DNA of 36,269 bases from a virus, in the IMG/VR virus record IMGVR_UViG_3300032285_002344, positions 1-36,269 of that record; one strand, 5' to 3'. Position 1 is the first letter of the stretch; every line of letters starts with the position of its first letter. This document shows positions 7,611-36,269 of the stretch, piece by piece. Under the pieces are notes generated by a model. That model was not told where the DNA came from. It ran no database searches and saw only the letters and a program-made list of their open reading frames with translations. The position numbers were made by a program, and so were the translations under genes.

Positions 7611-7646
7611 GTTTTATCACGGGTGAATATACACCTCAATCTGTTA
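7611..7646 (-). promoter_or_regulatory. Promoter with dyad operator before the cupin/internal protein unit
   Basis: Read on the minus strand: AACAGATTG, then -35-like TTGAGG (7634-7639), a 17-bp spacer, and -10-like TAAAAC (7611-7616). The spacer region holds the dyad site GGTGT-ATAT-TCACC (7622-7635). Eight bases separate the -10 from ATG 7602, so the mRNA would be nearly leaderless. The upstream end overlaps the stop codon of the tail nozzle gene. This is one of five matching sites in the genome. Confidence 0.65.
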
Positions 7647-12262: not shown

Positions 12263-12298
12263 GTTCTATGGTGTCAATACACCCTACGCAATCTGTTT
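12263..12298 (-). promoter_or_regulatory. Promoter with dyad operator before the major capsid gene
   Basis: On the minus strand: AACAGATTG with -35-like TTGCGT (12286-12291), a 17-bp spacer and -10-like TAGAAC (12263-12268). The perfect dyad GGTGT-ATTG-ACACC is at 12270-12283. The AACAGATTG-to-dyad distance is longer here than at the other four sites, yet the -35/-10 distance is still 17, which argues that the promoter reading is right. Confidence 0.65.
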
Positions 12299-13379: not shown

Positions 13380-13564
13380 TCGGTTTCATGGGGTTGGTTG
13401 TTTACTGCTTCGGAAAGAGGTGGCAATACACCTCCTGCCAAAAACTCGGCATGCTCACTCGGAGAAAAGTTCTCCTTGTGCCATGCGATAAAGAGGGGGT
13501 TGTCCCGAAGCGTTTCGGGGGTGAGTTCAGTCTTTCCTTGCGGTCGTTTTCTTTGGTGTTTCAT
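13376..13564 (-). CDS. Small conserved-looking phage protein before scaffold
   Basis: 62 residues, basic N-terminus (MKHQRKRPQGKTELT) and a LFIAWHKENFSPSEHAEFLAG region. No recognised family. Its start lies inside the end of the Bbp19-like gene (38-base overlap), and its stop overlaps the scaffold start by ATGA, so translation is probably coupled. The dyad site at 13419-13432 lies within it. Confidence 0.6.
   Translation of the reverse strand: MKHQRKRPQGKTELTPETLRDNPLFIAWHKENFSPSEHAEFLAGGVLPPLSEAVNNQPHETE
13419..13441 (-). promoter_or_regulatory. Dyad operator, possible weak promoter upstream of scaffold
   Basis: GGTGT-ATTG-CCACC on the minus strand (13419-13432), preceded by a -35-like TTGGCA (13436-13441). 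The hexamer 17 bases downstream (TCTTTC) is a poor -10. AACAGATTG is absent. It lies 40 bases before the scaffold ATG, inside the preceding coding region. Confidence 0.35.
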
Positions 13565-13790: not shown

Positions 13791-15544
13791 TACCTCATCA
13801 TTTGGCTGAGTTGGGCACCTGCTGCGGTGTCCGGTTTGACGCTACCGAGTTTCTGGGCAATGTCGGCTTGGTGGGCCTGCTGCGCCATCATCTGCTGCGC
13901 TTGGGCGGATTGCGCCCTCTGCTGCCTCATTTGGGCAATCATCTGGGGATCGCGCAGGAACTCAGCGTCTCCACCGTTGGCGAGGGTCTTTTCACGCACA
14001 ATCTTGTCGAAGTCAAAGTTGTCGAGGGGTGACATGTCTCCGGTAGCTTGGGCGACCGCTACGGCACCTTGGACAACCTCGTCAATGACTTGGACGGAGC
14101 GTGTGCCCACCGCAATGGACATGCGGTTGTTGAAGATCACCTGCGGTTCGGGGATGTAGGGTTCGCCGTTGGGGGCAAGTTGGATGAGAGACTGCGGGGG
14201 AGGGGGAAGCAGTCCGCGGCGGGCGAGGATGCCGTAGCAACGCTTCACAATGGGGATGAGTAGCTCGGTCGTGAGTCGGCTATAGGTGGGGGAGATGAGA
14301 ACCAATTTCTCGGACTCCATGGCCCGCACTTGAGTTGCGGTGATGGGTGTGCCACTGCGCTGGGCCTCCTCTTGTGCAAACATCTGGAAGAGGGGGACAT
14401 TGAATGCGTCTTCAATGTGGGCCTGCTTCATTTTGACCCGATCCTGCCCGATGTCGTAGCGACCTTGGGTGGCCCACTCCCTCGGAATCGAATTGGGGTC
14501 GGCGGCAGAGTAGTAAGTGATGCCTCCGGCGCGCAGATCGACATCTCCGTTCATGTCTTCGGGGACAAGCAGGCGCGGGAATGCCGCAAGTTCCGCTAAG
14601 GAATCGAGTTGCTTCTGTAGGAAATTGAGTTGCTTGGCATCGGGAAGTGCCACCCAAGAGGGAGACCACCCGTAGACCGAGTCCTGCCACTTGAGGAATC
14701 GCGACACAAAGACGGGTTGCTCATCAAACCCACTATTGCGGAGCACATGCTTGGTGGCCCACTCCACATGCGTTGAGGCAAAGGGTTTGTTCGGGCCATC
14801 CTTTTTGCCTTTGGTGCGCTCTTTCTCAGTGCGGGGACGGATCTCCCAGACCACCTCAATCTTGGTGTCCCAGTTCTTGCCATCTCCGGCCTCGTACATC
14901 TTGGCAACCGTGTCGGAGACGTTTTCAATCCCGTAAGCCTCGACCAGTTGCCGCACACTCATCTCGCGTTTGACGAGCACCGTATCCACATAGCCCTCGT
15001 GGTTTTCACTCGCCACAAAGGAACCGACATCAAAGGTCTTGAAGAGAAGTGGGCAATACTCTCCTTCGTCCACAAAGACTGCGGTTGTTCCGAAGGCACC
15101 TCGATCAAGGTGACTTTCATGGATCACGTTGTAGAAGTTACTGCGCCCCAACTCTTCAAGAATCACTTCCGTGCACTCGGCAAAGTATTCCATCACCCCT
15201 TCGCCTTCCTCGATGTTTTCTGGGGCAGCCAGTTGCACCCAATTGCTGTGCGGATCGTTCACATAGCTCATGATGCCCGCCGCCATGATCTGGTTGGCCC
15301 TCACCGCGGTCGTGTCAAAGAGTTGGGTTTCCCGATCAAGGTTTGGCCCGATCTGCTTGTTCAAGATGTACGACTTGCGCGGCATGACGTAGGTGGCAAG
15401 GTTCTGCCACATGCTCATCCAGTAGGCGCGAGATGCTTCTAGTGCACTCCAGCGAGCGATCACTGCTGTTGCTGCCGAAGTTTTACTGGTCGCTTCCTTG
15501 GGTGTCTTTACACCCGTCGACGCAATTGCTCCTTGGTCTGCCAT
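13790..15544 (-). CDS. Portal protein (gp8-like head-tail connector)
   Basis: 584 residues, near the usual 520-600. The N-terminal pattern WSALEASRAYWMSMWQNLATYVMP, FDTTAVRANQIMAAGIMSYV and HSNWVQLA are hallmarks of T7-type collar/portal proteins. Later come AFGTTAVFVDEG and an RQLVEAYGIENVS segment. The C-terminus is glutamine-rich and helical (QMIAQMRQQRAQSAQAQQMM). The dodecameric portal is the vertex for DNA packaging and tail attachment. It starts three bases after the stop of the proline-rich gene. Confidence 0.93.
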   Translation of the reverse strand: MADQGAIASTGVKTPKEATSKTSAATAVIARWSALEASRAYWMSMWQNLATYVMPRKSYILNKQIGPNLDRETQLFDTTAVRANQIMAAGIMSYVNDPHSNWVQLAAPENIEEGEGVMEYFAECTEVILEELGRSNFYNVIHESHLDRGAFGTTAVFVDEGEYCPLLFKTFDVGSFVASENHEGYVDTVLVKREMSVRQLVEAYGIENVSDTVAKMYEAGDGKNWDTKIEVVWEIRPRTEKERTKGKKDGPNKPFASTHVEWATKHVLRNSGFDEQPVFVSRFLKWQDSVYGWSPSWVALPDAKQLNFLQKQLDSLAELAAFPRLLVPEDMNGDVDLRAGGITYYSAADPNSIPREWATQGRYDIGQDRVKMKQAHIEDAFNVPLFQMFAQEEAQRSGTPITATQVRAMESEKLVLISPTYSRLTTELLIPIVKRCYGILARRGLLPPPPQSLIQLAPNGEPYIPEPQVIFNNRMSIAVGTRSVQVIDEVVQGAVAVAQATGDMSPLDNFDFDKIVREKTLANGGDAEFLRDPQMIAQMRQQRAQSAQAQQMMAQQAHQADIAQKLGSVKPDTAAGAQLSQMMR

Positions 15545-16000: not shown

Positions 16001-16335
16001 GCTGCGTAAATATCCTTCACTCTATACACCCGCAATCTGTTTTTCTTTTCAAAGGAAACATAAGTCGACCAAGCCACTTGCTTGAAGGCATCCATCATGT
16101 CTCCGGCATACAAATATAAGTGCCAGCAGTCCGGTTCTCCTGCGTCCCAGACGTTGCACCAAGGGTTCACAATTTCATAACGCGGCGCGTCATGGGATAC
16201 GGGTCGGGCCATGAAAAACAGATCCGGCGTGGAAACAACCACCCCATAGATGAGGTGAGCCTCAAGATCCTCCTTGAATGACCGAGCACATGGTTCTTGG
16301 TCATAGACTGCGGCAGCACGTTGGACGGGACTCAT
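15952..16335 (-). CDS. Conserved phage protein of unknown function downstream of terminase
   Basis: 127 residues, with the pattern ARSFKEDLEAHLIYGVVVST, then PDLFFMARPV, CWHLYLYAGDM, and near the end FEKKNRLRVYRV. The acidic EDL-HL, ST-PD-F-M-RPV and FE-KNRLR-Y blocks recur in a family encoded near podoviral terminase genes; no function is known to me. Its last 49 bases overlap the start of the next gene, and the portal-unit promoter lies inside its 3' end. Confidence 0.7.
   Translation of the reverse strand: MSPVQRAAAVYDQEPCARSFKEDLEAHLIYGVVVSTPDLFFMARPVSHDAPRYEIVNPWCNVWDAGEPDCWHLYLYAGDMMDAFKQVAWSTYVSFEKKNRLRVYRVKDIYAACSRHSLVSYRTSIPS
16007..16043 (-). promoter_or_regulatory. Promoter with dyad operator before the portal unit
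   Basis: On the minus strand: AACAGATTG with -35-like TTGCGG (16030-16035), a 17-bp spacer and -10-like TATTTA (16007-16012). The left dyad half GGTGT is kept but the right half is AGTGA (16017-16030). Six bases separate the -10 from ATG 16000, so the mRNA would be leaderless or nearly so. It lies within the coding end of the upstream gene. Confidence 0.6.
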
Positions 16336-19211: not shown

Positions 19212-19246
19212 ATTTTACCGAGGTGTCAATACACCGCAATCTGTTT
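19212..19246 (-). promoter_or_regulatory. Promoter with dyad operator before the SSB-terminase unit
   Basis: On the minus strand: AACAGATTG with -35-like TTGCGG (19234-19239), a 16-bp spacer and -10-like TAAAAT (19212-19217), the best -10 of the set. The perfect dyad GGTGT-ATTG-ACACC is at 19222-19235. The site overlaps the stop of the PAPS-reductase-like gene. A roughly 30-nt leader follows, with a short tandem repeat (CACCTGT twice). Confidence 0.7.
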
Positions 19247-20036
19247 ATGCCTCAAAACACCCACATGGCACTTTTGCGGGATCGTTCTCGTCAAGCCACT
19301 CAAACATTTTCATTTGATCGTCATCCGCGGCGACAATATCACTCCACTTGACTCCGAAGTGCAGTCCCTCAATACGACCTTTCACGTTCATGTTCTGCTC
19401 TAGTTTTATCGCACGATCAAAATAATCGGGGTAATCCTTCCGTAACCGGATGATTTCTCCGAGTTTCATGGATGGGCAAAAAAAACACGACGATTTGCCC
19501 ACCTGTGGCAATCCATGTCGCTTAATTGCAGCAACGCAATCCGATCGTTGCCACATCCACTCAATGAGGGGATACCACTGACGTTCGGTTATGCTTTTGC
19601 TAAGATTCTTGTGTTGGATGTTATGTGCCCTATGACCTTCTCCAACATCGTAGCCAACCGCAGAAATCACATGCGTAAGGTTTTTAGATTTTAACCACCG
19701 AGTCACATGGGTTTTTTGGGGGTCAAGTTTATACTTCATACTGCATGCTTTTGATCCGTAAGTGAGGGACGGAAGAACCTTGTTTCGCAGGCAATCTTTT
19801 TCCAGTGATGTCTGCTCCTTTTTGTAAGTCTTAAAGACGATCTCAATAGGAATGCCCCACCATTCTATCGTCTTTTTGGACATGAATTGAATGTGCTCGT
19901 AGGTGTGAGGTAATTCTCCACCTGTATCGGCAAACACAATAAGGTCGGGCTTGATGTCTCGTTCCCGAAACCCGCAAAGCATGGCAACCGAGTTGGTTCC
20001 TCCCCCGTAGGCTACGACGATTGGTATCTCATTCAT
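19245..20036 (-). CDS. PAPS reductase-like PP-loop protein (adenine nucleotide alpha-hydrolase superfamily)
   Basis: 263 residues. The P-loop-like AYGGGTNSVAML is at residues 9-20 (the usual SGGKDS appears as GGGTNS), then FADTGGELPHTYEHI. Paired cysteines appear in SKACSMK and SSCFFCPSMK and could bind metal or a cluster. Enzymes of this fold activate a substrate with ATP or use adenylated sulphate; phage members are annotated as PAPS reductase but rarely tested. Its place after the helicase loader suggests nucleic acid or sulphur-related modification rather than bulk sulphate assimilation (inference). Start ATG 20036 overlaps the loader stop (ATGA). Codons look more AT-rich than in neighbours. 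Confidence 0.8.
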   Translation of the reverse strand: MNEIPIVVAYGGGTNSVAMLCGFRERDIKPDLIVFADTGGELPHTYEHIQFMSKKTIEWWGIPIEIVFKTYKKEQTSLEKDCLRNKVLPSLTYGSKACSMKYKLDPQKTHVTRWLKSKNLTHVISAVGYDVGEGHRAHNIQHKNLSKSITERQWYPLIEWMWQRSDCVAAIKRHGLPQVGKSSCFFCPSMKLGEIIRLRKDYPDYFDRAIKLEQNMNVKGRIEGLHFGVKWSDIVAADDDQMKMFEWLDENDPAKVPCGCFEA

Positions 20037-20719
20037 GCCTTCACAATTTTCGAAAACTCTTTCAACCTGCGTAAGATCGCGGTGGCGCGGTCTTGTGAGA
20101 ACATCCCGTGCAATCCCTCGGCATCCGAGTTGCTTGTCCATATGGTCGGCAACCTTCGACTCGTCCGGTACTCCAGCAAGTCGTAGAGTTCGCTTTCTGC
20201 GCGGTCGGTCATACGGCCCTTTCCCAGATCGTCGAGGAGTAGCACCTCGCAACTCCGGCACATGGTCAGAATCGAGACCGCTATGGACTTGGTGGCAGGG
20301 TTGTCGGCAAACTGGTTGGCACTGTTTAATGCCAGATCCGTTGCCGATATGTAGAAGGTGGTGTGCCCGTCATCGTGCATCCTTTCCAGTAGCAGCACCG
20401 CTGATCGGGTCTTGCACCGTCCCGATAGTCCAATGAGTCCGATCCCGATGGGGTTGTATTCCCACGATTCGGTCGACTCGCGTAAACGGGCAGGAATGCG
20501 TTCCGGCAGGGTGTCGAGGTAGATCGGAGGGATCATTTGCTTAAAACGATCCCTGCGGGCATTCTCGCGCCGTTTTGCGGCATCCTGCTCCGCGTAGGCG
20601 ATGGACTTTTCGGTGCAGGGGTCGCACTTGGTGGGGGAGAAGACCACTTTGTTGCCAAAGGTGATCGGCTCAAAGGTGAAGGGTGTCGCGCAATCGGCGC
20701 ATGTCGATGTCTTGGTCAT
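20033..20719 (-). CDS. DnaC-like AAA+ helicase loader
   Basis: 228 residues. An N-terminal zinc ribbon (C7, C10, C32, C35) precedes the ATPase: Walker A GLSGRCKT at 97-104, Walker B LLLDD at 160-164 with a following GKGRMTDRAESELYDLL helix, and sensor I PTIWTSNSD at 191-199. This order is that of DnaC/IstB-type loaders that place a replicative helicase at the origin. As no phage helicase is seen, it probably recruits the host one. Start ATG 20719 overlaps the replication protein stop (TAATG). Confidence 0.88.
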   Translation of the reverse strand: MTKTSTCADCATPFTFEPITFGNKVVFSPTKCDPCTEKSIAYAEQDAAKRRENARRDRFKQMIPPIYLDTLPERIPARLRESTESWEYNPIGIGLIGLSGRCKTRSAVLLLERMHDDGHTTFYISATDLALNSANQFADNPATKSIAVSILTMCRSCEVLLLDDLGKGRMTDRAESELYDLLEYRTSRRLPTIWTSNSDAEGLHGMFSQDRATAILRRLKEFSKIVKA

Positions 20720-22009: not shown

Positions 22010-22310
22010 TGTTTTCGAGGGTTTGGGGTCGTGTATATACACCAAGGACACTAGCGTGTCTTTCGGGTCTCTTTGCCTGCCTGTATCCAATTCGGGTGAC
22101 GATCCCTGCACGGCATGCCGTGAGGAACAATGCGCCCATTGCGTTGGGGGTGGGGGGTTCTCCGATCCATTGCCGGACATCTTCCGCGGTGATCTCGTTG
22201 CCGTTGGCGACAAGGGTCATGATCACGGAAAGACCGGAGTCCCTCCACGATTGCGGGGTGTTCTTGCTAACTCGGTAGACACCGAGGTCTCGTAGGGTGG
22301 TGCCGTTCAT
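22002..22310 (-). CDS. Winged-helix-like conserved phage protein
   Basis: 102 residues. RDLGVYRVSKNTPQSWRD, ITAEDVRQWIGEPPTPNAMG and AGIVTRIGYRQAKRPERHAS form a pattern (RD-G, F/ITAEDVR, PNA-GA, GIV--GY-----R--H) shared by small phage proteins encoded in replication clusters. The fold is probably a winged helix; the role is unknown. Start ATG 22310 overlaps the previous gene's stop by ATGA. GVYT near its end is encoded by the dyad at 22030-22043. Confidence 0.6.
   Translation of the reverse strand: MNGTTLRDLGVYRVSKNTPQSWRDSGLSVIMTLVANGNEITAEDVRQWIGEPPTPNAMGALFLTACRAGIVTRIGYRQAKRPERHASVLGVYTRPQTLENND
22030..22043 (-). promoter_or_regulatory. Dyad operator inside coding sequence
   Basis: GGTGT-ATAT-ACACG on the minus strand, containing the perfect 12-base palindrome GTGTATATACAC. 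It lies 21 bases before the ATG of the 21686-22009 gene, the same distance as at the promoters. The matching -10 position (ACCCTC) is poor, so it may be an operator without promoter activity. Confidence 0.35.
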
Positions 22311-22985: not shown

Positions 22986-23092
22986 TGTTTTTCCTCCTCG
23001 TCGATGCGGTTGAGTTCCTCCTTCAATGCCTCGCGGATCTTGATGATCTGTTCTGTCACCCAATCAATGTCGTTGAGCGTGGGGTCTTTCAT
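22982..23092 (-). CDS. Micro-gene between ERF and coiled-coil genes
   Basis: 36 residues: MKDPTLNDIDWVTEQIIKIR, then an acidic helix ending DEEEKQ. The ATG overlaps the ERF stop by ATGA and its own stop overlaps the next ATG the same way. This double coupling is the main support for a real gene. No family recognised. Confidence 0.6.
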   Translation of the reverse strand: MKDPTLNDIDWVTEQIIKIREALKEELNRIDEEEKQ

Positions 23093-23700
23093 GCTGCAAG
23101 TCCCATTGCGTATGCCTTTACGTCATCGATCACCTCGCAAAGACGCTTTGCAAACGCCGGAGGTAGATCCTTGGTGGAGGTGATGGCAGAACCCTTTTTC
23201 TGGCACCACTCAACAACATCCTCGTTGCTGACCTCATTCTTGGTCATGAGTTCCGCAAGTTCCTTATTCCAATCTTTGATCGGTGCCTGCTTCTTCACCG
23301 GAGCAAACTTCTCGTTGCTTGGCTTGCTAGCCTGCTGACCGTCATCGTCATCGTCGGCTGCGATCCCTAGCACCGAAGACACCGCATATCGGCGGGCATA
23401 GGTGAGGGCACTACCGACTCCCTGCGCGGACTGATCCCGCAACGGAAGAAGGAGGGTGGACTCCCTGCTCTCACCACCCGTGTGGATGATTCGGGTGATG
23501 ACTCCGGCAAGACCGTCTTGGAATACGGGTTCCTGTGAGAGTGCCAGACCGTGCTTGCTCAATACGGGCCGTGCTGCGTCGAGGATTGCGTCGAGCGATG
23601 CATAGCGGTTCTTGAAGTGCGGGTTGACCGCGTTCTTCGCCACGTTTCGGAGTTCTCCGAGGCAGGCGACCAGTGCTGCGTTGATACCAGTGTTGCTCAT
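23089..23700 (-). CDS. ERF-family single-strand annealing protein
   Basis: 203 residues. After the start come AKNAVNPHFKNRYASLDAIL, PVLSKHGLALSQ, and later QSAQGVGSALTYARRYAVSS followed by GIAADDDDDG. K-----HF-N-YA-L, H-L---Q, QG-GSA-TYARRY and the DDDDG run are the signature of ERF recombinases, which anneal complementary strands in phage recombination and help circularise the genome. The C-terminal AELMTKNEVSNEDVVEWCQ resembles the small DNA-binding tail of these proteins. I use ATG 23700; upstream in-frame codons lie in non-coding sequence and a micro-gene. Confidence 0.95.
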   Translation of the reverse strand: MSNTGINAALVACLGELRNVAKNAVNPHFKNRYASLDAILDAARPVLSKHGLALSQEPVFQDGLAGVITRIIHTGGESRESTLLLPLRDQSAQGVGSALTYARRYAVSSVLGIAADDDDDGQQASKPSNEKFAPVKKQAPIKDWNKELAELMTKNEVSNEDVVEWCQKKGSAITSTKDLPPAFAKRLCEVIDDVKAYAMGLAA

Positions 23701-23723
23701 TGGTGTTGTTTGGGGTTGTGTCC

Positions 23724-23837
23724 TTACGGACGGGTTGTTGACCGAATCTTTGGTTCCGTGCCGGAGAAGGGGCAGGGGCGCGGGCGATACCCGACAAAGC
23801 GCAGGTACGCTTGCCATAGGCGGGTGAGGTACTTCAT
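23724..23837 (-). CDS. Micro-gene upstream of ERF
   Basis: 37 residues: MKYLTRLWQAYLRFVGYRPR, then a basic, proline-containing end. Amphipathic N-terminus. The ATG overlaps the stop of the preceding 33-residue frame (ATGA). Weak on its own; the coupling gives the support. Confidence 0.4.
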   Translation of the reverse strand: MKYLTRLWQAYLRFVGYRPRPCPFSGTEPKIRSTTRP

Positions 23838-23951: not shown

Positions 23952-23974
23952 GGCGTGTACACACCTTGGGGCAA
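23952..23974 (-). promoter_or_regulatory. Dyad operator before the micro-gene/ERF cluster
   Basis: GGTGT-GTAC-ACGCC on the minus strand (23952-23965), with the central palindrome GTGTACAC. A -35-like TTGCCC lies at 23969-23974, but the hexamer 17 bases downstream (TCAACC) is not a credible -10. The fourteen bases CAAGGTGTGTACAC recur at 24167-24183. Upstream is a nine-C run, 23990-23998 on the plus strand as G. Confidence 0.45.
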
Positions 23975-24003: not shown

Positions 24004-24285
24004 TTAAGCAGCCGATATAAGAAGTTGATCAATGTCTGCCCTTGCGATAAGCCTGCTTCCCATAACCTTGCGGGACTTGAGGACACCTGTCTTCATCATC
24101 TTGTAGATGGTTCCTCGTGAGAGATTCATGTGAGTCGCTGCCTCTGCTGGTTTCAAGAACTTGGGTTCTGTGTACACACCTTGCGACAAAACAGCAAGGA
24201 GGTTGCGTTTAAAAGATTCAACGAGTTCCTCGCGTGTATTGGCTGGGAACTCAATGTCGATGGGGGTCTTATTGTTTTGGTTCAT
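24004..24285 (-). CDS. Excisionase-like helix-turn-helix protein
   Basis: 93 residues. The C-terminal half, FLKPAEAATHMNLSRGTIYK, then MMKTGVLKSRKVMGSRLIARADIDQLL, is the HTH_17/excisionase type domain (MerR-like winged helix: helix-turn-helix, SRGTIYKM, R-----R------D-LL). The N-terminal 40 residues are helical (TREELVESFKRNLLAVLSQG). In this place beside the integrase it could be an excisionase or a regulator of the lytic promoters. ATG 24285 is preferred; a TTG at 24294 is also in frame. A dyad site falls inside the gene. Confidence 0.75.
   Translation of the reverse strand: MNQNNKTPIDIEFPANTREELVESFKRNLLAVLSQGVYTEPKFLKPAEAATHMNLSRGTIYKMMKTGVLKSRKVMGSRLIARADIDQLLISAA
24167..24180 (-). promoter_or_regulatory. 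Dyad operator inside the excisionase-like gene
   Basis: GGTGT-GTAC-ACAGA on the minus strand, in frame as GVYT. It lies 11 bases before an in-frame TTG exactly at the beginning of the HTH domain (LKPAEAA). A shorter product from there is conceivable but not shown. Confidence 0.3.
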
Positions 24286-24433
24286 GCTTTTCAATGTACT
24301 GGGTTACTTCTTTTTTTAGGTATGCAGACACAGTCATGCCGGACTGTGCTGCAAGTTTCTTTAAGACAGATTTCTCCACTGGCGTTAGCCAGAGAGTGGC
24401 CTGCTTGTTGCCTTTTTTACGTTGGTTTGGCAT
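24269..24433 (-). CDS. Ribbon-helix-helix-like small DNA-binding protein
   Basis: 54 residues: MPNQRKKGNKQATLWLTPVE, then KSVLKKLAAQSGMTVSAYLK and a short KEVTQYIEKH tail. A beta strand (ATLWLTP) followed by two helices with SGMTVSAYL between is the arrangement of RHH repressors (Arc/MetJ type). Its own start is preceded by the dyad at 24452-24465, so autoregulation is possible. ATG 24433 is preferred; the predicted -10 lies between it and an upstream TTG-type start. Confidence 0.7.
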   Translation of the reverse strand: MPNQRKKGNKQATLWLTPVEKSVLKKLAAQSGMTVSAYLKKEVTQYIEKHEPKQ

Positions 24434-24441
24434 AGGGGTTA

Positions 24442-24470
24442 AAGTAAGCACGGAGTGTACACACCTACAA
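24442..24470 (-). promoter_or_regulatory. Promoter with dyad operator before the RHH-like gene
   Basis: On the minus strand: -35-like TTGTAG (24465-24470), 17 bp, -10-like TTACTT (24442-24447; TACTTT one base on is an 18-bp alternative). The dyad GGTGT-GTAC-ACTCC is at 24452-24465. Seven or eight bases separate the -10 from ATG 24433. AACAGATTG is absent here, unlike the structural promoters. Confidence 0.5.
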
Positions 24471-24533: not shown

Positions 24534-25574
24534 TTACAGGTTCCACCATTTTGCAGCGTCTCGACGGGAAACTGAGTTGGCATACGTCTCGTAAATCAGT
24601 CGAGGCGAGGTGTGTCCCATTTCAAACGCGGTCTTCATGGCATCTTGAAAATGGGCTAGGTGATACGAAGCAAACGAATGCCGCAACGCATTTTGCGGAA
24701 ACCTTTCGCCTCCCAGCTTGGCTTCCATGGGCATTCCGCGGTGGCACCTCCATTCTTTGCTGGCACCCATCAAAGACCCTTGTCCTTTTGGCATGTGCCG
24801 CAGCACTGCGTCCTGCAGGGTCACCGAGCGAGGGCGCATTGCCTTTCCCTGCTTCGACTGTTCTTTGGTCACCATGATTTCCTTGTACTCGTGGTCGATG
24901 CATTCAAAGGACATCTTTGCCATCTCGCAGGTTCGTAATCCTGCAAAGCCTCCCAGCACGATCTTGCACTTGATCCAAGGTTCGACATCCAATTTCAGCA
25001 AGTCACCCATTTGCTCCGGCAAAAGGATCTGCTTGCGGGCATCGGCATCGGTCTTGTCCGGTGCTTCTACTTCTTGAAATGGAGATACCGGCACCAACCT
25101 GCGAACATCCCTCCAGTTAAAAAATTGGCGGGTCTGCGAGTAGTGGTTCCAGACAGTTCGGGTTCCATAGGGTAGACTGCTAAACCATGCCTCAATGTTC
25201 TCTGGGTCGATGTCCTTGGGTGACAGGTGACCAAAGGTTTGGGAAAAGCGCAGCAGGCAGGTCTTGGCTTGCTTGATCCCATCGTCACTCAAGGATCGGG
25301 ACTCCATGGTGGCAAGGTAGGTATCGACAAGACCCGCGACCTTTTCACTCACCTTGTCCTTGGAGACCCGTGTTTTGACTGCCTGCAGTGTGTGCTGTTT
25401 GGTGTGTTTTGCTATCCATGCAAAGGCACTTGCTTGGTCGGAAAAGAACTTTCTGCCCCTGTTTCCTGCGTTCATGTCTGGTGGAAGGTCTACTGCCCAC
25501 CGTTTGCGAGATTTGTAGAATCTAGGGATTAACCTCTTGGATCGTTGGTAATCCGATGCATGTGTCAGTTCCAT
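24534..25574 (-). CDS. int: Tyrosine recombinase integrase
   Basis: 346 residues. A SAM-like DNA-binding region (LSDDGIKQAKTCLLRFSQTF) precedes the catalytic domain: R214 in GFAGLRTCEMAKM, then NALRHSFASY with R298 and H299 (Asn in the usual first-His position), GHTSP with H321, and the candidate nucleophile Tyr331 in IYETYAN. It would recombine attP with a bacterial tRNA gene. The promoter region has a TTGACG (25605-25610) but no convincing -10; AAAGTG lies 17 bp downstream. attP lies just upstream of the gene, as usual. Confidence 0.95.
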   Translation of the reverse strand: MELTHASDYQRSKRLIPRFYKSRKRWAVDLPPDMNAGNRGRKFFSDQASAFAWIAKHTKQHTLQAVKTRVSKDKVSEKVAGLVDTYLATMESRSLSDDGIKQAKTCLLRFSQTFGHLSPKDIDPENIEAWFSSLPYGTRTVWNHYSQTRQFFNWRDVRRLVPVSPFQEVEAPDKTDADARKQILLPEQMGDLLKLDVEPWIKCKIVLGGFAGLRTCEMAKMSFECIDHEYKEIMVTKEQSKQGKAMRPRSVTLQDAVLRHMPKGQGSLMGASKEWRCHRGMPMEAKLGGERFPQNALRHSFASYHLAHFQDAMKTAFEMGHTSPRLIYETYANSVSRRDAAKWWNL

Positions 25575-25785: not shown

Positions 25786-26226
25786 TCACAATTTCTTTTG
25801 AAAATAGTACGCTTTATTTCCGGCATATTTTGACTCCGGCACATACAGTCGAAACCCGCAAGCAATGAGGGAATTTGCACTGGCAAGGTTCCAATCGAGC
25901 ACATAGGTCACGATCTGCTTGAACCCGTGCCGTTTTGCCATGGCAATGCGGGCGCGGATCAACCTTTTCTGCATGCCTTGCCCTCGGTGCTTGGTCAGCA
26001 CCCCGCTGCGAATCATGAAACAAAGTCCCTTGTTGCTTTCGTGGTGGCAGGGCCGGAGTCCGGCAAAGGCAATGCCCTTGCCTCGGTAATCGCGGATAAT
26101 CCACCACCACCCACCCTCCGGCTCGACCGCTACGTCCTCACCAAAAAGGGTCTTGTCGAGTTTGAGAACGTCCTCCCGCACCCGTGCAGGCAGGTGTTCT
26201 GGTCGAGCCTCGCAGCGCAGGATCAT
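25786..26226 (-). CDS. GNAT-family N-acetyltransferase
   Basis: 146 residues. Motif A reads GVLTKHRGQGMQKRLI with R81-G-Q-G-M as the acetyl-CoA pyrophosphate loop. The remaining GNAT strands include GGWWWIIRDYRG and QIVTYVLDWNLASANSLIACGFRLY, the C-terminal motif with N-x-AS-x-x-L-x-x-x-GF. Substrate unknown. Start ATG 26226 overlaps the previous stop (ATGA). The gene sits in a cassette between lysis genes and integrase, where accessory genes often lie. Confidence 0.85.
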   Translation of the reverse strand: MILRCEARPEHLPARVREDVLKLDKTLFGEDVAVEPEGGWWWIIRDYRGKGIAFAGLRPCHHESNKGLCFMIRSGVLTKHRGQGMQKRLIRARIAMAKRHGFKQIVTYVLDWNLASANSLIACGFRLYVPESKYAGNKAYYFQKKL

Positions 26227-26468
26227 TTGACGATGCGGTAGTGAGGAACCAAATACGTTGCCTTGTGACCCGTTTTGATCCGGTACTTGCGTTGCTCGAT
26301 GCTGCCTTCTTCTAGTGCCGCGGATAATAACCTGCGAGTCTGGCTTTCAGAACGACCCGTCTTTTTGGCAATGGTGCGACAAGATTCCCAATCTTTCGGC
26401 ACCTCGTCGGTCTTGAGTGATCCGGCTTGCACCAATATGGCAAGCCACTCGTTGGCAGTTTTGGTCAC
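26223..26468 (-). CDS. Small winged-helix/HTH protein
   Basis: 81 residues from GTG 26468, which overlaps the phosphoesterase stop as GTGA. An in-frame GTG at 26498 is the alternative. CRTIAKKTGRSESQTRRLLS followed by AALEEGSIEQRKYRI is a helix-turn-helix and wing. Probably DNA binding; target unknown. Confidence 0.6.
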   Translation of the reverse strand: MTKTANEWLAILVQAGSLKTDEVPKDWESCRTIAKKTGRSESQTRRLLSAALEEGSIEQRKYRIKTGHKATYLVPHYRIVK

Positions 26469-27226
26469 AGTGGTAGCCTCCACGGTTCGTTGGGGCACCG
26501 AGTGATGAGGTGGACGGATGAGGCACCGAGTTCGTTGCAGTATTCAAAATAAGACCACCCCTGCATCCACGCCGCCGTGCTCTTGCGGTTCTTTGCGTAT
26601 TCAAGCGACCCGCGACTTGTGAGGGTGCCGATGTTGTAACCAATACCACCGTGGTCGGAAGATGAGGCAGCGACCGCGCACTTGTGGGTGTGACCAAAGA
26701 TCACTTTGCGGACATCCGATCCGTTGCAGTAGTGCTCTGCCATTGTTTTGGTTGCTTGTTCGTTGAACCATGTGCCGTGGGTGAGGAGGATGTCGGATTG
26801 CTCAACCTTCACCTTCTGCCAGATACCCGCGTAGGGGGTGAGGCGGGCGCGGAGTTTGGTGCAGCATTCCTCAATGGATTCGTATGCCTTGTGTGCCGCG
26901 TAGCCGAGCACTCCTTCGCCCTTTCTGAGGCGATCTAGGCGATCCTCGTGATTTCCAAGCAGCACCTCGTAGGTTGCCTTGCTGTCTTTTGGCATCATCT
27001 GTTTGAGGTGCATGAGACCCGTCTCGATGTCCGGCGAGACATCTCCCTCTCCCGTACCACCACCCATGAACGCGGAAAGGTCGGTAAAGTCACCAAGGCA
27101 TGCCACGAACTGCGGTTTCCACCTCTCGCGGAATGCCATCATGGTTTCCATGGCAACTTTGTCCGCGTAAATGGCGTGGGAACATGACCATGCCATCCCC
27201 CGCTTCCACTTGTGTGTTATGTTCAT
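26465..27226 (-). CDS. Calcineurin-like metallophosphoesterase
   Basis: 253 residues. Metal-site motifs: C15-S-H17 where D-x-H is expected, GDFTD at 45-49, GNHED at 91-95, H150 in LLTHG, and GHTH at 178-181. All but the first aspartate are present. It could dephosphorylate a phage or host nucleic acid or nucleotide; no substrate is suggested by the neighbours. The start overlaps the endolysin stop (TAATG). Confidence 0.9.
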   Translation of the reverse strand: MNITHKWKRGMAWSCSHAIYADKVAMETMMAFRERWKPQFVACLGDFTDLSAFMGGGTGEGDVSPDIETGLMHLKQMMPKDSKATYEVLLGNHEDRLDRLRKGEGVLGYAAHKAYESIEECCTKLRARLTPYAGIWQKVKVEQSDILLTHGTWFNEQATKTMAEHYCNGSDVRKVIFGHTHKCAVAASSSDHGGIGYNIGTLTSRGSLEYAKNRKSTAAWMQGWSYFEYCNELGASSVHLITRCPNEPWRLPL

Positions 27227-33496: not shown

Positions 33497-33533
33497 GTTT
33501 TAGCGTGGTGTCAATACACCCACAATCTGTTTT
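33497..33533 (-). promoter_or_regulatory. Promoter with dyad operator before the tail fibre
   Basis: On the minus strand: AACAGATTG with -35-like TTGTGG (33520-33525), 17 bp, -10-like TAAAAC (33497-33502). The perfect dyad GGTGT-ATTG-ACACC is at 33507-33520. Eight bases separate the -10 from ATG 33488, predicting a nearly leaderless mRNA. It sits in the 65-base gap after the giant gene. Confidence 0.68.
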
Positions 33534-36146: not shown

Positions 36147-36269
36147 ACCTCTGCCATGTCCATGTGCGAGTAGCGTTGGATGTCGGATAGGAGCGCATGC
36201 GTGTCGGCACCCAATTTGCCTTTTGGTGCTTTGCCCGCTTTGAAGGTCGGTTCAGCCTTGTCGAGCAGC
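36147..36269. repeat. Terminal direct repeat, right copy
   Basis: Exact copy of 1-123. See the left copy. The giant gene's coding frame is open in both. Confidence 0.95.

Follow-up and report, generated by a model that had tools for sequence, protein, structure and literature searches.

Many environmental podophages carry an integrase and no recognisable repressor, which raises the question of whether, and how, they form lysogens. We addressed this question in an IMG/VR virus record of 36,269 bp, analysed over its whole length and called the window here, for which the first-pass annotation had proposed a small RHH-like protein as a regulator. We lean towards the reading that this protein is an Arc/CopG-like autorepressor that has turned into a global repressor of lytic genes, and that it probably serves as the lysogeny repressor. 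It is most likely an autorepressor and, among possible switches that would keep the virus dormant, it is the best candidate; the lysogeny role itself is plausible and unproven.

Nearly all genes of the window lie on the minus strand, and the record probably represents a complete genome because a direct repeat of about 123 bp stands at its two ends (1-123 and 36147-36269). The virion module is of podophage type, with a portal (PHROG head-tail adaptor, 3e-103), a major head protein and tail proteins, and an Sf6-like small terminase, a GTA-type holin and an M15 peptidase are also encoded. Consistent with the earlier remark that this integrase-bearing genome lacks a CI- or Cro-like repressor, Pfam searches of 30 window ORFs found no repressor of the CI/Cro/LexA type (HTH_3 or LexA-like); they found no relaxase either, and no phage RNA polymerase was seen among the ORFs scanned. 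A 91-aa ORF in the lysis block (26223-26498, minus), with weak winged-helix matches (HTH_23, HTH_IclR), is kept in three relatives (G001, G002 and G011) and is the sole other possible regulator that we noticed in the window. A PAPS reductase-like ORF (19245-20261, minus) has a Pfam match just under the cut-off, and the window contains no tRNA to hint at an attachment site. The terminases nearest to that of the window come from environmental contigs. A related prophage-like region, with a terminase 59% and a portal 45% identical, lies in a contig of a Verrucomicrobia MAG (L146; JAGWWS010000019.1); the host phylum is probably Verrucomicrobiota because of this terminase match. The L146 region is without an RHH of the window's type.

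The RHH reading frame gives 54 residues from its ATG, or 60 from an alternative GTG start. Its assignment to the RHH proteins, first made from the sequence alone, is supported by the searches: the product exceeds the gathering cut-off of the Pfam NikA-like model (PF21983; 30.5 bits against 27, E 4e-7, residues 7-40 only) and matches the PHROG family 'Arc-like repressor' (E 6e-4), with further profile matches to pRN1 ORF56 (E 8.5e-4) and CopG (E 0.07). The predicted monomer (mean pLDDT 81) has helices at residues 18-31 and 35-50 after an extended N-terminus, and its best PDB matches by Foldseek are CopG, Arc and NikA, with a probability of 0.99 and E values of only 0.06-0.1 over about 45 residues. 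When the RHH of the relative G003 was searched by tblastn, no match was found among named phages, and plasmids gave marginal matches only (E 0.06-0.09), inside sphingomonad cyclase/phosphodiesterase genes.

The dyad GGTGT-GTAC-ACTCC, described previously as lying in the spacer of the RHH promoter, is indeed located there, between a -35-like and a -10-like hexamer (S1 in the table). It has a single mismatched pair, the right arm reading ACTCC instead of ACACC. The candidate promoter is in the top 1.8% of sigma70 scores and was too weak for a strict consensus scan, which missed it; in relatives it is stronger (TTGACA-17-TAGTTT). All nine RHH-bearing relatives have a dyad at the S1 position, about 30 bp before the RHH start, and in most of them it abuts a TTGAC/TTTAC-like -35. 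A palindromic operator in its own promoter, as expected of an autoregulated RHH repressor, is thereby found in the window and in its relatives at the level of sequence.

Table. Features of the window that bear on the candidate RHH regulon.
Feature	Position	Strand	Remarks
Dyad GGTGTATATTCACC	7622..7635	-	upstream of p157, after ACAGATTG
S6, GGTGTATTGACACC	12270..12283	-	upstream of major capsid gene
S8, GGTGTATTGCCACC	13419..13432	-	upstream of scaffold gene; one mismatch; throughout the clade
S5, GGTGTAAAGACACC	15501..15514	-	first codons of portal gene
Degenerate site GGTGTATAGAGTGA	16017..16030	-	after ACAGATTG; about 480 bp upstream of portal gene
S4, GGTGTATTGACACC	19222..19235	-	in promoter (TTGCGG-16-TAAAAT) of p105/terminase block; perfect or degenerate dyad also in those relatives that cover the region
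Dyad GGTGTATATACACG	22030..22043	-	upstream of a 105-aa early ORF (about 22002-21686); kept in G001, G002
ERF-family recombinase gene	23089..23817	-	Pfam ERF 3e-28; start of replication block
S3, GGTGTGTACACGCC	23952..23965	-	16 bp upstream of the ATG of a small ORF preceding the ERF gene; kept in relatives
Excisionase-like HTH_17 gene, 93 aa	24004..24285	-	Pfam HTH_17 2.6e-9; PHROG excisionase and transcriptional regulator 1.3e-6
S2, GGTGTGTACACAGA	24167..24180	-	within HTH gene; orthologous sites in G003, G004, G007, G008/G009
RHH regulator gene, 54 aa (MPNQRKKGNKQATLWLTP...)	24269..24433	-	Pfam, PHROG, predicted fold
Candidate RHH promoter	24441..24470	-	-35 TTGTAG (24470-24465), -10 TACTTT (24446-24441), S1 in spacer
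S1, candidate operator GGTGTGTACACTCC	24452..24465	-	18 bp upstream of RHH ATG
Tyrosine integrase gene	24534..25574	-	PHROG integrase 1.8e-23
S7, GGTGTATTGACACC	33507..33520	-	upstream of a 600-aa fibre-like gene

Dyads of this kind recur across the window. The motif AGGTGTGTACAC occurs three times on the minus strand (at 24465, 24180 and 23965) against a mean of 0.00 in dinucleotide shuffles, and GGTGTN4ACACC occurs four times against a mean of 0.03; none of 300 shuffles matched either count, which rules out chance occurrence. GGTGTGTACAC and GGTGTATTGACACC are each found three times, all on the coding strand, with almost none in shuffles. The three copies of GGTGTATTGACACC are S4, S6 and S7, in agreement with the earlier proposal that the dyad also marks virion promoters, and the same dyad family occupies these places clade-wide. 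Because a PWM trained on six S1 sites lacked specificity at the chosen threshold (34 window hits against 7-14 in shuffles, with the sister clade at background), we relied on exact and near-exact dyads. The gap directly before the integrase holds no dyad in the window or its clade. Two relatives each have a perfect GGTGTATTGACACC dyad some 2.9 kb ahead of the integrase (G003 33254 and G009 23814, oriented coordinates); these lie outside any recognised promoter and may be within coding sequence.

We read 19 related records whole, distinguishing the window's clade (G000-G010) from a sister clade (G011-G019). Within the window's clade, whose terminases are 75-97% identical, GGTGT-N4-ACACC dyads that are perfect or have one or two arm mismatches occur at the orthologous places S1-S7; several late sites in relatives have two. 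The frame spanning S3 contains a stop in G001 and G009, so S3 is not coding there. Only in the window's clade do dyads also precede the blocks for terminase, portal, capsid and fibre, and the GGTGT-N4-ACACC form is absent from the sister clade G011-G019. In integrase-bearing sister clades, RHH dyads are found only in the RHH-HTH region, which indicates that control of virion promoters is not general to the RHH family.

These relatives also bear on which protein binds the dyads, since the excisionase-like HTH_17 product had been put forward as an alternative to the RHH: it is adjacent, DNA-binding and has a dyad within its own gene, and its PHROG family is annotated as excisionase and transcriptional regulator. 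The only sister-clade member with a clear homologue of the window RHH (G016, 39% identical) carries the related dyad GGTGGTTATACACC upstream of the RHH and once more, inverted, before the HTH gene, but its HTH differs. G014 and G016 have HTHs that are 82% identical, RHHs that are 32% identical and different dyads (GGTTTATTAAACC versus GGTGGTTATACACC); in G014 the dyad, GGTTTATTAAACC or GGTTTAATAAACC, is present in three copies. Conversely, G013, G015 and G018 have a common RHH (74-93%), and each has three copies of the dyad GGTT[A/T]TAGTAACC, even though identity between the HTH of G018 and those of the other two is only 39-45%; between G015 and G018 the RHHs are 93% and the HTHs 45% identical, and the dyads are the same. 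This double dissociation argues that the dyad follows the RHH, not the HTH.

RHH-dyad pairs are also found without an HTH of the window's type. In three Verrucomicrobiota genomes, RHH homologues are accompanied by TTGACA-GGTGTGCGTACACC (L152), GGTGGTTAACCACC (L158) or three copies of GGTGG-N4-CCACC (L160), and an unrelated virus (L144/L145) has AGGTGTCATACAC before its RHH homologue and GGTGTATGACACC before two other genes, with no such HTH in the stretch read. A further Verrucomicrobiota homologue (L159) has GGTGACTAGACACC twice, and yet another RHH, in G012 and G019 (L022, L075), has GGTGTCAGACACC about 30 bp upstream. Overall, a GG-led 5-[3/4]-5 dyad mostly lies just upstream of RHH homologues, often straight after TTGAC. 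In a held-out set gathered later with a broader profile, from which 11 RHH homologues were chosen by an MPxQR-like N-terminus and a profile match, seven had such a dyad in exact form no more than 75 bp away, compared with 15 of 494 upstream regions used as controls; L175 and L176 closely resemble one another as well as L158, giving an independent count of about 5 or 6 of 9 or 10, and two of the 11 (L177, L188) had no dyad. The RHH is thus very probably the binder of the dyads, as the first-pass annotation had favoured, and binding together with autorepression can be strongly inferred. Binding by the HTH_17 protein instead appears very improbable, as the dyad changes with the RHH and occurs with it where that HTH is missing.

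The dyad within the portal gene (S5) provided an opportunity to separate selection on DNA from selection on protein. Across seven portals, 163 codons specify the same amino acid among G, V, T, P, A, L, S and R; only nine of these use a single codon throughout, and three of the nine belong to S5, where they specify G, V and T. The chance that three given codons all fall among the nine invariant ones is about 1e-4. The codon test rules out mere conservation of the portal protein as the origin of S5, and selection therefore probably acts on the DNA as such.

The sites differ in their promoter context. S1 and S4 are in about the top 2% of sigma70 scores, their dyads lying in spacers of 16-18 bp; S6 and S7 reach the top 5-7% in G000-G002 and score lower elsewhere; S2, S3 and S5 have no standout sigma70-like score. 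A TTTTGCC-like box lies about 9 bp upstream of four transcript-internal dyads (S2, S3, S5 and S8). Together, the sigma70 scores and the upstream boxes suggest two site classes, promoter-spacer and transcript-internal. Steric exclusion of RNA polymerase would be the natural mechanism at the former, and the latter, with their TTTTGCC-like box, may act as roadblocks or non-canonical promoters. One frame of the same four dyads encodes, in genes that are unrelated, a peptide resembling [LIV]-L-[PSA]-x-G-V-x-T-P, and one of these frames is non-coding in two relatives. In addition, the coding strand of the window has six copies of ACAGATTG and the other strand none, and at five late sites it precedes the dyad by 9-13 bp (33523-33530, 19237-19244, 16033-16040, 12289-12296 and 7637-7644, minus). 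It is likely a late-promoter element of the window's subclade. GATGTCC, considered as a second regulatory element, was rejected: it is found ahead of some promoters but is not restricted to one strand, and it is equally common in sister clades.

In the mechanism that we propose, the RHH would bind GGTGT-N4-ACACC-type dyads as CopG/Arc tetramers do, probably with one dimer per 5-bp arm. On S1, in its own promoter spacer, it would exclude RNA polymerase and limit its own synthesis; on S2, S3 and the terminase, portal, capsid and fibre promoter sites of the window's clade it would hold down lytic transcription. The integrase has no site directly before it. The order S1-RHH-S2-HTH-S3-ERF fits a maintenance repressor. 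Across six lineages, S1 has 1, 1, 2, 1, 4 and 2 arm mismatches and is never perfect, whereas S3 has 1, 0, 1, 0, 0 and 0 and is usually perfect, as is S5; S1 exceeds S3 in five lineages and ties with it in one. If mismatches mean lower affinity, the RHH could be made while downstream genes are off because S1 is less perfect than S3, and it would still reach levels that block those genes. The assumption need not hold, since perfected palindromes bound the RHH protein MobC no better (PMC4175270). A lysogeny repressor would be expected to have operators at lytic promoters and yet to leave its own maintenance expression unblocked. Most lytic blocks have a dyad, the integrase has none directly in front of it, and S1 has the most mismatches in five of six lineages; this may suit such a role, provided that mismatches reflect affinity. 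On the other hand, the RHH is the first gene of the very operon to be silenced, which is unusual for a maintenance repressor. We consider its likely role to be lysogeny maintenance in a phage without a CI-type repressor.

In a different reading, the RHH is an early lytic autoregulator, a Cro-like timer that damps early and late promoters through the same dyads without maintaining lysogeny. Arc of P22 acts as such an early lytic autoregulator, the window RHH gene opens the early operon and its product is predicted to repress its own synthesis, and in sister clades the sites are limited to the RHH-HTH region. A timer of this kind would be expected to have the same S1 and would have less need of sites at virion genes; why late genes should be damped in the course of lytic growth is harder to see, and the window's clade has perfect dyads at nearly all lytic blocks, virion genes included, and none directly before the integrase. 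We regard this reading as unlikely, although by no means negligible. It is more improbable still that the late GGTGTATTGACACC sites merely resemble the RHH operator and belong to an activator or, with ACAGATTG, to a phage-specific late promoter. The strand bias of ACAGATTG before five late sites and the difference between early and late centres in the window would agree with this, but in relatives early and late sites have the same arms and similar centres (GGTGTATAGACACC, for example, is early in G001 and G009), and the sites are absent from sister clades that have other RHHs. A role as a NikA-type mobilisation accessory protein at an oriT-like repeat, suggested by the best Pfam match, deserves almost no credence: no relaxase is present among the scanned ORFs, and the spread of sites over the genome, not gathered in one oriT, largely refutes it.

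Judged by its sequence features, the system that we favour is an autoregulated RHH repressor, a known kind, with an unusually wide predicted operator set. Arc and Mnt of P22 are likewise small, autoregulated phage RHH repressors, in keeping with the PHROG match; their action is confined to the immI/ant locus and does not extend to promoters across the genome, and P22 also has a CI-type repressor, C2. CopG of pLS1 and pRN1 ORF56 are small RHH autorepressors too, but they act at one locus only, in the control of plasmid copy number. In function, F55 of SSV1 comes closest. Several promoters, its own included, are bound by this 55-aa RHH, which represses its own and early genes and sustains the carrier state (PMC9608457). 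F55 belongs to an archaeal fusellovirus and the window RHH to a bacterial tailed phage; the F55 sites are 11-nt (ATAGATAGAGT) and not mirror-image, whereas those of the window are dyads and also stand at virion genes. MobC of plasmid RA3, whose own promoter has an imperfect palindrome separating -35 from -10, is an RHH autorepressor (PMC4175270) that shares the promoter-spacer operator logic but differs in operator sequence. MobC and NikA of R64, the latter linked to the window RHH through the Pfam model, work with a relaxase at oriT, whereas no relaxase was found among the window ORFs scanned. Among podophages, no repressor is known for the T7-like cyanophage S-TIP37, which integrates but does not form stable lysogens (PMC8776855), and a MarR-like protein has been proposed as the repressor of LUZ100, likewise T7-like (PMC10134795). 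Both resemble the window in having an integrase and no CI-type repressor, but they carry a phage RNA polymerase, which was not seen among the window ORFs scanned, and the candidate repressor of the window is an RHH rather than MarR-like.

The RHH offers a concrete, testable repressor candidate with operators predicted at base resolution, and some 20 natural RHH-operator pairs may allow a beta-ribbon DNA recognition code to be read from sequence covariation. From the CopG alignment we take residues 11, 13 and 15 to be the DNA-facing strand positions. In a post hoc comparison, proteins with W15 have GGTG[T/G] arms and mostly a 4-bp centre (3 bp in L144), and those with G13 and Y/F15 have GGTGA or GGTT[A/T] arms and mostly a 3-bp centre; L192, with G13, W15 and GGTGT, agrees with the W15 and not the G13 pattern. 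Tentatively, and with some doubt, we propose that this mini-RHH family swaps its operator with the protein, all copies of the dyad changing when the RHH gene does and beta-strand residues 13 and 15 tracking the arms, and that in one podophage clade the operator has spread to almost all lytic blocks and into codons of the portal gene, the RHH being the sole lysogeny repressor. One further locus (L154/L169; G281) has a pair of RHH-like genes, one on each strand (MPKKPRRSKLLTVWL and MPSQRAANRTPMSLWL), which share a stretch containing GGTGTATGACAC-type as well as GGTGTAATAAAGTTTATTACACC repeats.
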